From NCBI GenBank assembly GCA_002428445.1, contig DIWJ01000082.1, forward strand, positions 1 to 8,413: 8,413 bases of DNA, given 5' to 3'. A model generated the notes under the pieces. The model was not told the origin of the DNA, ran no database searches, and saw only the letters and a program-made list of their open reading frames with translations. Position 1 is the first letter of the stretch; each line of letters opens with the position of its first letter. The position numbers and the translations under genes are program-made. Source of the DNA: Syntrophaceae bacterium UBA6109 (GTDB lineage: Bacteria; Desulfobacterota; Syntrophia; Syntrophales; UBA6109). Below are positions 254 through 8,413 of the stretch, one piece after another.

Positions 254-1018
254 TCACAGGATGACGGCGATCCCTCTCTCCTTCAGGTACTCCTTGACCT
301 GCCTGATGGTCAGCAAGCGGAAGTGGAACACGGAGGCGGCCAGCAGGATCGATGCCCCCGCTTTCGCCACCGCATCGTAAAAATCGTCCAGTTTTCCCGC
401 TCCGCCCGAAGCGACGACGGGCAGCTTCACGGCATCGGCGATCGCCCTCGTGAACTCCAGATCGTAACCGGCCTGCGTCCCGTCACCGTCCATGCTGGTC
501 GGCAGGATCACGCCGGCCCCCAGCGCTTCGCACTGCTTCGCCCAGGCGACCGCATCCTTTCCCACCGGCTTCGTCCCCCCGGCCACGACCAGCTCGAATC
601 CCGACGGCATGGCGGGATTGCGGCGGCCGTCGACGGCCACGGTGATGCGCTCCGACCCGAACTTTTTCGCCGCCTCTTCCACCAGCGCGGGCCTCTTGAC
701 GGCGGCGCTGTTCATGGAGACCTTGTCCGCACCGGCCGCAAGGAGCAGGTCGATGTCCTCGAGGGCCGAGATGCCGCCGCCCACCGTGAGGGGGATCGAA
801 ATCACGGAAGAAACCTTATTCACCCACTCGAGGCGCGTCTTGCGGTTCTCCAGCGTCGCCGCGATATCCAGCATGGCCAGTTCGTCGGCCCCTTCCTTCT
901 GATAGAGGGCGGCGTTTTCCACCGGATCGCCCGCGTCCTTGATCTCAACGAAGTGAACGCCCTTGACCACCCTTCCCTCTTTCATGTCCAGACACGGCAT
1001 GATCTTTACGATTTGCAT
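254..1018 (-). CDS. hisF: Imidazole glycerol phosphate synthase cyclase subunit HisF (solitary, slightly variant)
   Basis: This is a 254-residue (beta/alpha)8 barrel of normal HisF length. In histidine synthesis HisF takes ammonia from HisH and converts PRFAR to imidazole glycerol phosphate and AICAR in the cytoplasm. The catalytic aspartates fall at the canonical positions, D11 (PCLDMKEG) and D130 (VAVDGRR). K19, D51, the GGGI phosphate loop (80-83), N103 and the SGGAG phosphate loop (204-208) are also present. The TSMDGDGT strand (174-181) carries ILP where most HisF have ILL or LLL, and there is a short insertion around 131-140. The start is set by GAGGAGGAA just upstream of the ATG. The gene begins 16 bp after the LUD stop, so it is the last gene of the nupC operon. 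No hisH, hisA or hisI is nearby, so it may be either the only HisF or a diverged paralogue. Confidence 0.9.
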   Translation of the reverse strand: MQIVKIMPCLDMKEGRVVKGVHFVEIKDAGDPVENAALYQKEGADELAMLDIAATLENRKTRLEWVNKVSSVISIPLTVGGGISALEDIDLLLAAGADKVSMNSAAVKRPALVEEAAKKFGSERITVAVDGRRNPAMPSGFELVVAGGTKPVGKDAVAWAKQCEALGAGVILPTSMDGDGTQAGYDLEFTRAIADAVKLPVVASGGAGKLDDFYDAVAKAGASILLAASVFHFRLLTIRQVKEYLKERGIAVIL

Positions 1019-3695: not shown

Positions 3696-3714
3696 AGGGA
3701 AGGGGGTGACCTGC

Positions 3715-4095
3715 ATGGCGATCACGAAAACATTCGGTGATTTGTTCAAGGCGAAGAGAGTCGAGAAAGGGCTGACGTTAAGGGAGTTTTGCCGGATCAA
3801 CGGGTTCGATCCAGGCAACGTCAGCAAAATTGAGCGCGGGCTGTTCCCGCCGCCTCAGTCGAAAGAAATGCTTTCGAAATACGCGGCGGCCCTTGGCATC
3901 GAAGAAGGAACCGAAGGCTGGTTGACATTCTGCGACCTGGCCGTCCTCAGCGCAGGGAAAATACCCGACGATGTCGTGTCGAGCGAGGAGTTGATGAATG
4001 CACTGCCGGTTTTGTTCAGAACGGTAAGGGACAGGAAGCTCGATGAAGAAGACCTCGAAAAGCTGGTAAAAGCGATCAAGAAAGAATTGCGCTGA
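3715..4095 (+). CDS. XRE-family helix-turn-helix transcriptional regulator
   Basis: This is a 126-residue DNA-binding protein. Residues 7-62 form an HTH_3/XRE domain, with KAKRVEKGLTLREFC in helices 1-2 and NVSKIERG (35-42) as the recognition helix, followed by a charged C-terminal tail (108-126). The start is taken as ATG 3715 because AAGGGGGTGA, nearly the full anti-Shine-Dalgarno complement, ends 5 bases before it; the upstream GTG at 3706 lies inside that site. The stop overlaps the start of the peptidase by one base (TGATG), implying translational coupling. Genes of this type paired with an ImmA/IrrE peptidase usually act as a repressor or antitoxin-like partner that the peptidase cleaves; that role is inference here. 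It probably controls its own promoter through the palindrome at 3677-3695. Confidence 0.85.
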   Translation: MAITKTFGDLFKAKRVEKGLTLREFCRINGFDPGNVSKIERGLFPPPQSKEMLSKYAAALGIEEGTEGWLTFCDLAVLSAGKIPDDVVSSEELMNALPVLFRTVRDRKLDEEDLEKLVKAIKKELR

Positions 4096-4715
4096 TGTTC
4101 GAATGCCCGGTTATCAGTCACAGCGAAATAGGCAGAAGAGTAGAATCGTTCCTCAAGCAGTATCATCCTTCGCTCGAGATACCGATTCCTGTCGAGGAAA
4201 TTATCGAGCTAAAATTGGGTCTCAATATCTTTCCCTTTCCGAGATTATACAAGGACCACGGTTTGAATGGATTTCTGAGCCGCGACCTTTCGACGATCCA
4301 TGTGGATGAAGTCCAGTACAGTCAATACAATGAAAAATATCGCTATACGCTGGCACACGAACTGGGACACTACGTCTTGCATCGGGCCTGTTATGAGGAC
4401 CTGACATTTCAATCTATCGACGACTACAAGCGCTGGAGGATTTCCGTTCCGTCGGAGGACATCAGTTGGTTCGAAACACAGGGAGGATGGTTCGCGGGCC
4501 AATTGCTGGTTCCTACAAAACAACTGTTCGGCGTTTGCAGCGCCGTCGTCGAAAAACATCAGATGGATTTCAGGAGGCTGGCATCGCTGCCGGAAGACAC
4601 CTGGTCCTACATAGCGAACGAAGTCGCCAGCTATTTCGATGTGAATCCGCCCGTAGTGGAGATCCGCATCAAAAAAGAGAACATTCCGGAGAAGATACCG
4701 ATACTGGGGAAGTGA
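4095..4715 (+). CDS. ImmA/IrrE-family zinc metallopeptidase
   Basis: This 206-residue protein belongs to the ImmA/IrrE family (PF06114, COG2856). The zinc site is visible as YTLAHELGHYVLH with H88, E89 and H92, and a third ligand is probably E127 in WFETQGGWFAGQLLVP (125-140). The N-terminal segment (to about residue 75) has the usual helix plus the NGFLSRDLSTIHVDE strand pair seen before the active site. Characterised members cut an XRE-type repressor (Bacillus ImmA on ImmR, Deinococcus IrrE/PprI on DdrO) to switch on stress or mobile-element genes. The gene overlaps the XRE gene by one base, which fits that partnership. Both genes are visibly more AT-rich than their neighbours, a hint of lateral transfer. 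No integrase or phage gene is in the window. Confidence 0.88.
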   Translation: MFECPVISHSEIGRRVESFLKQYHPSLEIPIPVEEIIELKLGLNIFPFPRLYKDHGLNGFLSRDLSTIHVDEVQYSQYNEKYRYTLAHELGHYVLHRACYEDLTFQSIDDYKRWRISVPSEDISWFETQGGWFAGQLLVPTKQLFGVCSAVVEKHQMDFRRLASLPEDTWSYIANEVASYFDVNPPVVEIRIKKENIPEKIPILGK

Positions 4716-4993: not shown

Positions 4994-6262
4994 ATGAAAG
5001 TCCTCCTGATCTCCGCCAATACCGAACGGATCAACGTGGCGCCGCTTCCTCTGGGACTTGCCTCAGTCGCCGCGGCGACGCGGCGCGCCGGGTACGATGT
5101 CCGGCTGCTGGACCTGATGACGCAGGAGGACCCGCAGTCCCGGATCCGCGAGGCGATCGAGGCCTTTGCCCCCGGCGTCATCGGAATCTCCGTCCGCAAC
5201 ATCGACGACCAGGTCCGGCGCGGCGGGCGGTTTCTCCTCGAGGAGGTCGGGCGCGTCGTCCGCTGCTGCCGGAACTTTTCCGATGCACCGTTGGTCCTCG
5301 GCGGCGCCGGCTACAGCATCTTTCCGGAGAGCGTTCTGGCCTATCTCGGCGCCGACATGGGAATCCGGGGCGAGGGGGAAACCGCTTTCCCCGCCCTGAT
5401 CGACCGCCTGGCCCGGCATGCGGACCTTGCGGACGTGCCGGGGCTCTACCTGCCGGGGCGCGGCCGGGGCGCCGAAAGGATCTGCAAGCGAAACCTGGAC
5501 GCGTTGCCTCTGTCCGGGGCGCTGGAATTCCTCACCTCCCGGGACGAAGAGCTCTGGCTCCCCTTCCAGACGAGACGCGGCTGTCCGATGGGGTGCAGCT
5601 ACTGTTCGACGGCGGCCATCGAGGGACGAAGAATCCGGAAGCGGTCGCCCGGGAGAGCTGTGGATGACCTGGCGCGCTATGCGGCGGCAGGATTCCGGCG
5701 GGTCTACTTCGTGGACAACACCTTCAACCTGCCCCGGGGCTATGCGAAGAACCTTTGCCGCGCGATCCTCGGCCGCGGCCTCAGGATCCGCTGGCGGGCC
5801 ATACTCTACCCGGTAGGAATCGACGAGGAACTGGCCGTCCTCATGGCGGAGGCGGGCTGCGGGGAGGCGAGCCTGGGATTCGAAAGCGGCTCTGCGCGGA
5901 TGCTGCGCAGTCTGAACAAGCGCTTTTCTCCCGGGGAGATCCGGCGGACTTCCGAGCTCCTCGCGCGGCAAGGCATCAGCCAGACCGGGTTTCTGCTGCT
6001 GGGCGGTCCGGGCGAGACGAAGGAATCGGTGATCGAGAGCCTCCGCTTCGCCGATTCCCTCCCCCTGGCGCAGTTGAAAATCACGGCGGGCATCCGCATC
6101 TATCCGGGCACGGCGCTCGCGGAGACCGCCGTTGCGGAAGGGGTGATTGCGCCTGAGGACGATCTCCTGCGGCCGAAATTCTACATCGCCCGCGGCCTGG
6201 AGGACTGGCTTCCGGAACTCGTCGGGAAGTGGCTGGAGAAGCGTCCCACCTGGATGAGATGA
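4994..6262 (+). CDS. B12-binding-domain radical SAM protein of unknown substrate
   Basis: This 422-residue protein has the two-part layout of cobalamin-binding radical SAM enzymes. Residues 1-130 form a Rossmann-like B12-binding region (MKVLLISANT, GLASVAAATRRAGYDV, GVIGISVRNID, and GGAGYSIFPE near 103-112). Residues 190-380 are the radical SAM core with C197, C201 and C204 in the CxxxCxxC motif (RRGCPMGCSYC) that binds the [4Fe-4S] cluster. GFESGS (295-300) and GGPGET (337-342) are typical later core motifs. The DxHxxG cobalamin-ligating motif is not seen, as in many members of this superfamily, so cobalamin may bind base-off without a His ligand or not at all. Such enzymes often methylate or rearrange unreactive carbons. 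The ATG is preceded only by a weak GGGGAT. PolX follows after 99 bp with no obvious functional link. Confidence 0.85.
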   Translation: MKVLLISANTERINVAPLPLGLASVAAATRRAGYDVRLLDLMTQEDPQSRIREAIEAFAPGVIGISVRNIDDQVRRGGRFLLEEVGRVVRCCRNFSDAPLVLGGAGYSIFPESVLAYLGADMGIRGEGETAFPALIDRLARHADLADVPGLYLPGRGRGAERICKRNLDALPLSGALEFLTSRDEELWLPFQTRRGCPMGCSYCSTAAIEGRRIRKRSPGRAVDDLARYAAAGFRRVYFVDNTFNLPRGYAKNLCRAILGRGLRIRWRAILYPVGIDEELAVLMAEAGCGEASLGFESGSARMLRSLNKRFSPGEIRRTSELLARQGISQTGFLLLGGPGETKESVIESLRFADSLPLAQLKITAGIRIYPGTALAETAVAEGVIAPEDDLLRPKFYIARGLEDWLPELVGKWLEKRPTWMR

Positions 6263-6361: not shown

Positions 6362-8083
6362 ATGACCAATTCCGAGATTGCAGAAATCTTCCTGGACATG
6401 GCCGACCTCCTGGAGATGAAGAACGATAACCCGTTCAAGATCCGGGCCTACCGGCGCGCCGCCGAGTCGATCAAGCAGCTGCCGCGGGAGATGAAGGCCA
6501 TGCTTGCCGCGGGTGAGGACTTCCGGGAGATCCCCGGCGTCGGCGAGGCCGTCGCCACGAAAAGCGAAGAGCTTCTCCGGACGGGCCGGCTCGCCGCTTA
6601 TGAGGACTTGAAGGCGGCCATGCCGGCCGGCGTCCTCGACCTCATGGCCGTGCCGGGGGTGGGCCCGAAGACCGCCTACCGTCTCGCCGCGGAGCTGGGC
6701 ATCCGGTCCGTCGACGACCTGGAGCGGGCGGCATCGGACGGGCGCATCGCCGCCTTGCCGCACCTCGGGGAAAAAACGGCCGAGAAGATCCTGCGGGAGA
6801 TCCTGGCGCTGCGCCGCAAGGACCGGCGCTATCCGCTGGGAACCGCCCTGCCCGCCGCCGAAGAGATCCTGGCGGCGCTCCGCAAGGTGCCCGGCGTCCG
6901 GAATATCACGCCCGCCGGCAGCCTGAGACGCTTCCGGGAGACGGTGGGCGACATCGACATCATGGCGACCGCCGACGACCCCGAAACGGCCATCGCCGCC
7001 TTCGCCGGCCTGCCGCAGGTGGCGGAGGTGCTCGCCAGGGGAACGACGAAGGCCAGCGTCCTTCTCGCGGGAAACCTCCAGGCGGACATGCGGATCGTCG
7101 CGCACGAATCCTTCGGATCGCTGCTCCAGCACTTCACCGGAAGCCGCGACCACAACATCGCCCTGCGCGCCTTCGCCCAGAAGATGGGGCTCAGCCTGAG
7201 CGAATACGGGATCGCGGACGACATGGGAAAAATCGAGACCTTCACCGACGAGGCGTCCTTCTACGGCCGGCTGGGCCTCTCCTTCATCCCCCCGGAAGTG
7301 AGGGAAAACCAGGGCGAAATCGACCTTGCCGCCCGGGCAATGCTGCCCAGGCTCCTGAAGGCCGGGGACATCCGCGGAGACTTCCACACCCACAGCAACT
7401 GGAGCGACGGGCAGGCAACGATCGAGGAGATGGCGGCCGCCGCCGAGGCCCTCGGCTACGAGTACCTCGTCGTCACCGACCACTCGGCGGGCCTCGGGAT
7501 CGCCAACGGCCTTGCCGCCGACCGGCTCCGCGACCAGGCGGCGCACATCCGCGCGGTCAACGGCGCGCGGAAGCGAACGCGGCTCCTCGCGGGTGTCGAG
7601 GTCAACATCAGGGCCGACGGACGGCTCGCCCTTCCCGATGAAGCGCTTGCGGAACTCGATGTCGTCGTCGCCGCCGTCCACTCCTCCCTGGACCAGAACG
7701 AGCAGAAAATGACGCGGCGCATTGTCGCGGCCCTGGAAAATCCCCACGTGGATATCCTCGCCCATCCGACCTCGCGCCTCATCGGCCGGCGCGAACCCGC
7801 CAACCTGGACATGGAAGCCGTCCTCGCCGCAGCCGCCCGTTTCGGCAAGGCGCTGGAAATCAACGCCATGCCGGACCGCCTGGACCTCAACGGCGCGCAT
7901 ATCCGCCAGGCCCGCGAACGGGGGGTCATGCTCGCGATCGGAACCGACGCCCATGCCGCCGCCCACCTTTCCCTGATGCGCTTCGGCGTCGGCACGGCGC
8001 GCCGCGGCTGGTGCGGCTCGGAAAACGTCCTCAATACGCGAAGCCTCGGCGATGTCCTTGCCTGGCTCAGGAAACCGGCGTGA
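6362..8083 (+). CDS. polX: Family X DNA polymerase (PolX) with C-terminal PHP phosphoesterase/exonuclease domain
   Basis: This 573-residue protein is a bacterial PolX of normal length, a repair polymerase that fills short gaps, as in base excision repair. The N-terminal 8-kDa region (MKNDNPFKIRAYRRAAESI, 19-37) and three helix-hairpin-helix motifs (IPGVGEA 57-63, VPGVGPKTA 97-105, LPHLGEKTA 132-140) bind DNA. The polymerase palm has GSLRR (186-190) with catalytic D197, D199 and a third carboxylate D242 (ADMRI). From about 335 follows a PHP domain with H342, H344, D349, D373-H374, E413, H440, H468, D529 and H531. All the metal ligands that I can recognise are present, so Mn-dependent 3'-5' exonuclease or AP-endonuclease activity is likely. 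The start MTNSEIAEIF aligns with homologues, but the ribosome site is weak. A terminator follows at once. Confidence 0.95.
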   Translation: MTNSEIAEIFLDMADLLEMKNDNPFKIRAYRRAAESIKQLPREMKAMLAAGEDFREIPGVGEAVATKSEELLRTGRLAAYEDLKAAMPAGVLDLMAVPGVGPKTAYRLAAELGIRSVDDLERAASDGRIAALPHLGEKTAEKILREILALRRKDRRYPLGTALPAAEEILAALRKVPGVRNITPAGSLRRFRETVGDIDIMATADDPETAIAAFAGLPQVAEVLARGTTKASVLLAGNLQADMRIVAHESFGSLLQHFTGSRDHNIALRAFAQKMGLSLSEYGIADDMGKIETFTDEASFYGRLGLSFIPPEVRENQGEIDLAARAMLPRLLKAGDIRGDFHTHSNWSDGQATIEEMAAAAEALGYEYLVVTDHSAGLGIANGLAADRLRDQAAHIRAVNGARKRTRLLAGVEVNIRADGRLALPDEALAELDVVVAAVHSSLDQNEQKMTRRIVAALENPHVDILAHPTSRLIGRREPANLDMEAVLAAAARFGKALEINAMPDRLDLNGAHIRQARERGVMLAIGTDAHAAAHLSLMRFGVGTARRGWCGSENVLNTRSLGDVLAWLRKPA

Positions 8084-8105
8084 CCGGCGCATCCGCCGCC
8101 GGGTT

Positions 8106-8133
8106 GCCCCGGAGAGCCGGGCGGGATTTTTTT
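8106..8133 (+). terminator. Intrinsic terminator after polX
   Basis: A GC-rich hairpin, GCCCcGG-AGAG-CCGGGC (8106-8122, one bulged C), lies just ahead of seven T residues (8127-8133), 23 bp after the polX stop. The outer CCGCC (8093-8097) could extend it by pairing with GGCGG (8120-8124) in an alternative fold. It ends rightward transcription just before the promoter at 8139. Confidence 0.7.
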
Positions 8134-8138
8134 AGCTG

Positions 8139-8167
8139 TTGACAAATAAAAGGCGGCATTCTATAGG
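8139..8167 (+). promoter_or_regulatory. Strong sigma70-type promoter of the attenuated synthase gene
   Basis: TTGACA (8139-8144) is followed after exactly 17 bases by TATAGG (8162-8167). The transcript would start near 8174 and run through the small isoleucine-rich ORF to the terminator at 8317-8356, giving a leader of about 180 bases. The promoter lies immediately after the polX terminator, so the downstream gene is a separate transcription unit. Confidence 0.8.
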
Positions 8168-8200
8168 GAACCCTCCTCGAAAGGGGGAAGGACAGGCAGC

Positions 8201-8296
8201 ATGACGAAGATCACGATCGGCATCGTCATATCCATTATTCCCGCGGGCATCATTACCGGGCCCGCATACCGTGGAGACCTGACCGCCGCTTCGTGA
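8201..8296 (+). CDS. 31-residue isoleucine-rich leader peptide of a putative attenuator
   Basis: This small ORF of 31 codons has a good ribosome site (GAAGGA, 8 bases before the ATG). The peptide starts MTKITIGIVISII and ends GDLTAAS. Eight of its 31 residues are isoleucine (positions 4, 6, 8, 10, 12, 13, 17 and 18), coded by ATC, ATT and one ATA. Thr occurs four times and Val and Leu once each. It sits between a strong promoter and a strong terminator that precedes a DTTLRD-type synthase. This is the layout of leader peptides such as those of the ilv, thr and leu operons, where ribosome stalling at scarce-amino-acid codons senses charged tRNA. Here the sensed amino acid would be isoleucine. 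The hydrophobic run (4-18) could be read as a short membrane segment, but the position and codon content make a regulatory role more likely. Confidence 0.8.
   Translation: MTKITIGIVISIIPAGIITGPAYRGDLTAAS
8243..8265 (+). promoter_or_regulatory. Leader hairpin next to the last Ile codons (candidate pause structure)
   Basis: GCGGGC (8243-8248) pairs perfectly with GCCCGC (8260-8265) around an 11-base loop that holds the Ile17 and Ile18 codons. It could act as an RNA polymerase pause hairpin that keeps transcription and translation in step, the role hairpin 1:2 plays in classical attenuators. I could not find a good 1:2 partner for the antiterminator segment itself. Confidence 0.4.
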
Positions 8297-8336
8297 CATC
8301 CGCACACACTCACAGCAAAACCGTTATCAGGCCTCC
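8273..8336 (+). promoter_or_regulatory. Candidate antiterminator pairing
   Basis: GGAGACCTGA (8273-8282, inside the last codons of the small ORF) can pair with TCAGGCCTCC (8327-8336) at nine of ten positions, with one A-C mismatch. The second segment is the upper 5' arm and loop of the terminator, so the two folds exclude each other. A ribosome held at Ile17/18 (8249-8254) leaves 8273-8282 free. A ribosome at the stop (8294-8296) would cover much of it and let the terminator form. Confidence 0.6.
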
Positions 8337-8356
8337 TGGTAACGGTTTTTTATTTT
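8317..8356 (+). terminator. Attenuator terminator before the synthase gene
   Basis: AAAACCGTTATCAGG (8317-8331) pairs at all 15 positions, one as a G-U wobble, with CCTGGTAACGGTTTT (8335-8349) around a CCT loop, and TTATTTT follows. It is the strongest terminator in the window and lies between the small ORF and the ribosome site of the next gene. It therefore acts in cis on the downstream gene rather than ending an upstream operon. Confidence 0.9.
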
Positions 8357-8367
8357 CGGAGGAAGCC

Positions 8368-8413
8368 ATGAAAGAAAGACCGGTAAGGATCTACGACACC
8401 ACGCTTCGCGACG
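8368..8413 (+). CDS. cimA: Start of a DTTLRD-type acyl-CoA synthase, probably citramalate synthase (partial)
   Basis: Only 15 codons are in the window, beginning MKERPVRIYDTTLRD, after a good ribosome site (GGAGGA, 4 bases before the ATG). IYDTTLRD is the N-terminal metal-binding signature of the LeuA/homocitrate/citramalate synthase family. The wording fits the CimA branch, which condenses acetyl-CoA and pyruvate to citramalate, the first step of a threonine-independent isoleucine route. The isoleucine-rich leader supports this over isopropylmalate synthase (LeuA), where leucine codons would be expected. The family call is strong; the exact substrate remains open until the rest of the gene is read. 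Expression should be under the attenuator at 8201-8356. Confidence 0.65.
   Translation, partial: MKERPVRIYDTTLRD

Follow-up and report, generated by a model that had tools for sequence, protein, structure and literature searches.

A probable isoleucine-codon attenuator upstream of a putative citramalate synthase gene in a Syntrophales-type bacterium

Positions 8139-8413 of the window, the 8,413-nucleotide stretch of DNA analysed here, very likely form a ribosome-mediated attenuator by which the supply of charged tRNA-Ile governs the transcription of cimA, a citramalate synthase gene, in a Syntrophales-type bacterium. In the switch that we propose, a ribosome translating a short isoleucine-rich leader ORF would, when isoleucine is plentiful, run on to the stop codon at 8294 and cover an RNA segment that we call strand 2; with strand 2 covered the 8317-8349 terminator would form and cimA would be off. 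When isoleucine is short the ribosome would stall on Ile codons, chiefly codons 17 and 18, with its leading edge at about 8262-8265, leaving strand 2 (8267-8282) free to pair with 8327-8341 (strand 3) once that segment has emerged. This 2:3 pairing would pre-empt the terminator, and cimA would be transcribed. Without translation, strand 2 would pair back with 8225-8235 and the terminator would win. An isoleucine-codon attenuator had been put forward in an earlier, sequence-only reading of the window, and it gains support here from the resemblance of the switch to three proven Escherichia coli attenuators in the same folding test. We also lean, with less assurance, towards a broader view: that a leader of nearly pure Ile governs entry to isoleucine synthesis by way of citramalate and is conserved in a group of Syntrophales, the logic known from enteric bacteria having evolved or been rebuilt for a different first enzyme, with isoleucine sensed independently of valine and leucine.

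Promoter, leader ORF and terminator

The features of the region and of the rest of the window are collected in Table 1. The putative promoter has a perfect −35 sequence, and its −10 sequence matches the consensus at four of six positions and lacks the last T; a consensus promoter scan of the region listed no promoter, because this −10 sequence is weak. We infer that the promoter is used, in which case transcription would start near 8174. Folding of the leader had been proposed together with the sequence-only reading, and the RNA from 8172 to 8352 does fold better than all of 200 shuffled sequences (z −3.97). That reading had also described a TTGACA-17-TATAGG promoter, a 31-codon ORF with a ribosome site and eight Ile codons, and a 15-bp terminator with a T-run, all of which are found in the sequence, at 8139-8167, at 8201-8296 with AAGGA as the ribosome site, and at 8317-8349, respectively.

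Table 1. Features of the window and the basis on which each was assigned
Feature	Position	Strand	Description or basis
hisF	254-1018	-	identity comparison
Overlapping genes for an HTH protein and a protein with an IrrE N-terminal-like M78 peptidase domain	3706-4715	+	
B12-binding radical SAM protein	4994-6262	+	between the HTH/M78 pair and polX
polX	6362-8083	+	upstream neighbour of the leader
Terminator-like hairpin and T-run 3' of polX	8108-8133	+	stem 8108-8121; terminator scan, sequence
Putative promoter	8139-8167	+	TTGACA 8139-8144, 17-nt spacer, TATAGG 8162-8167; read from sequence
5' hairpin, start of predicted transcript	8172-8191	+	MFE fold
Leader ORF ribosome site AAGGA	8188-8192	+	sequence; ends 8 nt 5' of the ATG
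Leader ORF	8201-8296	+	MTKITIGIVISIIPAGIITGPAYRGDLTAAS; 31 codons, 8 Ile; homologous small proteins P0242, P0243, P0244
Strand 1	8225-8235	+	pairs with 8271-8283 without ribosome; MFE fold
Ile codons 17-18, the final pair, where stalling is chiefly predicted	8249-8254	+	folding with stalled ribosome
Strand 2 of antiterminator	8267-8282	+	YRGDL codons and first base of the T codon; pairing, invariance of PAYRGDLTA
Intrinsic terminator	8317-8356	+	15-bp stem 8317-8349 and T-rich tail; terminator scan; fold of 8308-8355, −20.1 kcal/mol
Strand 3	8327-8341	+	terminator upper 5' arm, loop and upper 3' arm; pairs with strand 2 (14 pairs)
Synthase ribosome site GGAGGA	8358-8363	+	sequence
Start of probable CimA-type citramalate synthase	8368-8413	+	MKERPVRIYDTTLRD; 15 residues, cut by the window end

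With its ribosome site and its many codons for the presumed pathway product, the ORF at 8201-8296 looks like the leader ORF of an attenuator. Ile occupies codons 4, 6, 8, 10, 12, 13, 17 and 18, and eight Ile in 30 codons is improbable at the frequency found in the six coding sequences of the window (129 Ile in 2022; binomial P 4.5e-4). Among 180 nested short ORFs compared, the leader ORF ties with a 47-codon frame (1570-1713) for the most Ile, and a 24-codon frame has a higher Ile fraction. Ile accounts for eight of the nine I, L or V residues 5' of PAYRGDL, against a share of 0.249 in the window (P 1.0e-4). These codons are four ATC, three ATT and one ATA, the corresponding numbers in the coding sequences being 110, 12 and 7.

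Between the leader ORF and the structural gene, where an attenuator would have it, lies an intrinsic terminator (8317-8349 and a T-run) of 15 pairs with a loop of 3. Terminator-like sites number two in 514 bases, against a mean of 0.5 in shuffled sequences, the other being the hairpin behind polX at 8108-8121. The sequence-only reading had placed an antiterminator at 8273-8282, complementary at nine of ten positions to the upper arm of the terminator. The complementarity stands, with 8327-8336 as the partner, but the helix proved longer than that and its target is not the upper arm alone, since it spans the loop and the upper 3' arm as well. Helix 2:3 (8267-8282 with 8327-8341) comprises 14 pairs, one bulge and one A-C mismatch, and the best duplex of the two strands, two extra pairs included, has an energy of −21.0 kcal/mol, which was equalled by 24 of 5000 dinucleotide shuffles. 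When codons 22-31 were recoded at random with synonymous codons, 516 of 5000 recodings paired as strongly as the actual sequence, so the pairing of strand 2 could largely follow from the peptide, and the nucleotides of strand 2 could be tuned only as far as the peptide demands.

Folding with a stalled ribosome

A stalled ribosome was modelled with an Ile codon in the A-site and its leading edge at the first base of the P-site codon plus 16. So placed, the edge stands at 8262 for a stall at codon 17 and at 8265 for codon 18, four and one bases, respectively, before helix 2:3. With the RNA extended to 8342, helix 2:3 forms with a probability of 0.97-0.98 when the ribosome stalls at Ile codon 4, 8, 17 or 18 and of 0.53 when it stalls at Ile codon 13; the value drops to 0.00 for a ribosome that has reached the stop codon and to 0.04 if there is none. 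The probability of the terminator pairing (3:4) with the ribosome at the stop codon is 0.98. The two pairings are mutually exclusive in silico, and in this model stalling at Ile codons would free an antiterminator that excludes the terminator, as in an attenuator. The switch score exceeds shuffled controls only moderately: of 600 shuffles, 16 equalled the stall-minus-stop score at exit 8342 and 24 did so at exit 8340.

At exit 8342 helix 2:3 has a probability of at least 0.53 wherever in codons 3-20 the ribosome stalls, non-Ile codons included, so specificity must depend on slow translation of the Ile codons in particular. When the RNA extends to 8355 the terminator is favoured at equilibrium in all seven ribosome states (0.97-0.98), and antitermination would therefore be kinetic and rest on timing, a kind of switch modelled for E. 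coli attenuators (PMC1183508, in extract). By a broader measure, upstream pairing of the upper arm in ribosome-free RNA has a probability of 0.72-0.74 at the first three RNA lengths and of 0.04 at the fourth and last.

As a yardstick, the E. coli leaders thrL, ilvL and leuL were run through the same folding script as the window, the script taking a 13-pair, 7-loop version of the window terminator. All four profiles have a similar shape: a ribosome on the earlier regulatory codons leaves the upper arm of the terminator bound to upstream RNA, and by the time it reaches the stop codon the arm has been released. From the end of the stop codon to the first base of the terminator the distance is 21 positions in the window, 20 in thrL and 21 in both ilvL and leuL. 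The profiles do not all fall at the same point: the fall comes three codons beyond the final Ile codon in the window, at the final Thr codon or one codon later in thrL, as early as the final two Ile codons in ilvL, and two codons beyond the Leu run in leuL, whose profile is visible only at the shortest RNA length tested. The ilvL leader of E. coli ilvXGMEDA is like the window in having a short ORF with many branched-chain codons, Ile among the regulatory ones, and a stall-dependent antiterminator, but it mixes Ile, Val and Leu codons whereas the window leader is nearly Ile alone, and it controls the ilv genes rather than a probable citramalate synthase. Both thrL and leuL share the anatomy of the window with different regulatory codons (Thr and Ile in the former, Leu in the latter), and the target of leuL, alpha-isopropylmalate synthase, is a relative of CimA.

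The downstream enzyme

The start of a DTTLRD synthase, noted in the sequence-only reading, is in place behind the terminator with its ATG at 8368. The further claim that this gene belongs to branched-chain amino acid synthesis finds backing in a CimA-type IYDTTLRD, within the scope of the first 15 residues. The N-terminal YDTTLRD motif of CimA (TIGR00977) is present in MKERPVRIYDTTLRD, and the residue before DTTLRD is Tyr in the window and in every one of the 28 loci that score over the TIGR00977 cut-off. Below the cut-off there were 30 loci; ten had internal or partial matches and were left out, and among the 20 that were scored the motif was in place in 14 (preceded by Phe in 11, Thr in three and Tyr in none) and six gave no motif. 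Tyr also precedes DTTLRD in 116 of 116 proteins with the motif in the first 40 residues, a narrow and mainly Omnitrophota-like sample drawn from the CimA search. The only locus from a scan for viral CimA (L049), 51% identical to CimA, has Phe before the motif, so the Tyr mark is not absolute. From its first 15 residues the downstream enzyme is likely CimA, and we infer the same for the remainder of the protein. Citramalate leads to isoleucine via 2-oxobutyrate, a route that fits an Ile-only leader.

DTTLRD is widespread in the DRE-TIM family and 15 residues of the enzyme are visible, which leaves room for a genuine isoleucine attenuator that controls, by a cross-pathway logic, an enzyme other than CimA, for example LeuA or a Re-citrate synthase. 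We consider this unlikely, since Tyr before the motif separates the loci over the TIGR00977 cut-off from the 14 below it and since an Ile-only leader suits an Ile-only enzyme.

We also surveyed the stretches upstream of 29 cimA loci (the 28 over the cut-off, from 27 genomes, and the one on the viral contig). ORFs of 8-60 codons were sought within at most 500 nt 5' of the gene (246 nt for locus L128), and the two frames richest in Ile, where a locus had two, were compared. By eye, no leader comparable to that of the window was seen upstream of cimA in any of the 29 loci; none of them is known as Syntrophales, and the survey therefore says nothing on the window's own group. A 16-codon frame with four Ile in locus L096 was rejected as a leader, its hairpin being followed by A and not T. 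In many of these loci (L017, L019, L030, L045, L096, L097 and others) an aspartate kinase gene ends just 5' of cimA, at the place where the window has polX. An aspartate-kinase tail motif occurs in the stretch upstream of cimA in 23 of the 29 loci; six upstream proteins, those of L096 and L097 included, all have Pfam amino-acid kinase and ACT domains, and the two of the six that were tested against NCBIfam both match aspartate kinase models.

Conservation of the leader peptide

A conserved Ile-rich ORF in relatives, which the sequence-only reading had expected of an attenuator, is present at the peptide level. A search with the leader ORF and nine upstream codons as query returned three candidates, and all three small proteins proved homologous: P0242 (31 aa, eight Ile) is 94% identical to the leader (E 2.3e-8) and occurs on 10 contigs; P0243 (31 aa, nine Ile), from Syntrophaceae bacterium PtaU1.Bin231 and annotated as a hypothetical protein, is 87% identical; and P0244 (32 aa, six Ile) is 81% identical. 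The share of Ile among the I, L and V residues before PAYRGDL is high in each (P 4.0e-4, 1.2e-4 and 4.1e-3, respectively), and PAYRGDLTA, which contains the antiterminator strand, is invariant in all four leaders.

PtaU1.Bin231 is placed by the NCBI taxonomy in Thermodesulfobacteriota, Syntrophia, Syntrophales. The closest named relative of the window PolX, P0005 (Syntrophales), is 88% identical to it, and judged by PolX the organism of the window is close kin of PtaU1.Bin231. The records of P0243 and P0005 give the same length, 293794, for their longest contig, a hint that leader and polX may stand in the same gene order in PtaU1.Bin231. Relatives of PolX in genome contigs gave 16 loci, none of them named Syntrophales or other Desulfobacterota; of five phyla reached from these loci, with 40, 3, 6, 7 and 2 genomes, none was shown to be that of the window. 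One of two pattern scans of viral contigs yielded 18 loci, whose frames looked unrelated by eye, and the other yielded 0; a tblastn search of plasmids gave 372 records, every one below 60% identity.

Since the leader has a hydrophobic, Ile-rich stretch of 20 residues that resembles a transmembrane helix, and since the peptide is conserved, with gene calls in other genomes, it could be read as a functional small membrane peptide, with the terminator as the end of its gene and cimA expressed by read-through or from another promoter. This seems to us slightly less likely again than an enzyme other than CimA. The hydrophobic residues are nearly all Ile, and it is the hydrophilic, antiterminator-bearing tail that is most conserved (10 of the last 11 positions of the window leader are invariant in the four leaders, against 11 of the first 20); moreover, the distance from stop codon to terminator and the folding profile match those of the E. 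coli attenuators. It is very improbable that an Ile-rich frame lies by chance near an ordinary terminator with no translational regulation. The shuffles that equal the switch score, the synonymous recodings that pair as well and the second short frame with eight Ile in the window all speak for such a coincidence, but the conservation of the leader in three other records (81-94%, PAYRGDLTA included), which weighs most heavily against chance, and its location directly between promoter and synthase speak against it. A terminator in a 5' leader might bring to mind a T-box, a riboswitch or another RNA element of a known family, but this is scarcely credible, given that no Rfam family, leader and riboswitch families including the T-box among them, matched the window at gathering score and that the sole match in 8090-8413 at E up to 1 was mir-451 (16.2 bits against a cut-off of 66.5).

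Relation to known attenuators

The sequence-only reading had regarded attenuation of this kind as little described outside the gammaproteobacteria. That is too narrow for attenuation as such, as leader-peptide attenuation has been reported in Actinobacteria (PMC1262725) and, for his leaders, in bacilli (PMC2965389), both in extract, but the cimA target is indeed unusual. With attenuation already reported in those groups, the unusual points are thus the cimA target, the near-purity of Ile and the lineage. In the extracts available, actinobacterial ilvB leaders combine runs of Ile, Val and Leu codons with terminators outside the enteric bacteria (PMC1262725, PMC11857589, PMC10272879) and differ from the window in their mixed codons and their ilvB target. 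An attenuator peptide of Staphylococcus aureus ilv likewise acts on branched-chain synthesis outside the Proteobacteria (PMC5794164, in extract); compared with the window leader it is leucine-rich and serves Gram-positive branched-chain synthesis genes. Classical attenuation is described as frequent in Proteobacteria (PMC4833913, in extract, citing Lopatovskaya 2010).

No leader attenuator of cimA was found among the literature matches listed, which were represented by extracts, and the surveys of Vitreschak 2004 and Lopatovskaya 2010 may contain one. The terms 'leader peptide' and 'isoleucine' are absent from the main text of PMC545781, as are 'citramalate' and 'isoleucine' from PMC2965389. 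It is well supported that the switch is of a known kind, ribosome-mediated attenuation, with a target and lineage for which no description was found in the literature searched. For uncultured syntrophs that would make isoleucine from citramalate, it would provide a simple rule of isoleucine control that can be tested. Its signature, an Ile-rich ORF with a PAYRGDLTA-type tail followed some 20 nt later by a terminator, may help to annotate cimA and could re-label 'hypothetical' proteins of 31 residues as leader peptides.

Other genes of the window

The named relatives of PolX near 60% identity are a mixture of Dehalococcoidia/Chloroflexi, Deltaproteobacteria and Syntrophales, which suggests transfer of polX. 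The product of hisF shares 79% and 76% identity with its counterparts in two genomes from small phyla (G092 and G123) and at most 61% with those in the other genomes compared, a hint that it belongs to a separate HisF lineage or was transferred. Pairs of HTH and M78 genes such as that in the window are frequent in mobile or stress-response modules. Positions 1-260 contain a repeat-like stretch that translates as SFPRTRES and WMPDQVRHD, with a 21-nt tandem pair at 29-71, and presumably represent a dispersed palindromic repeat.
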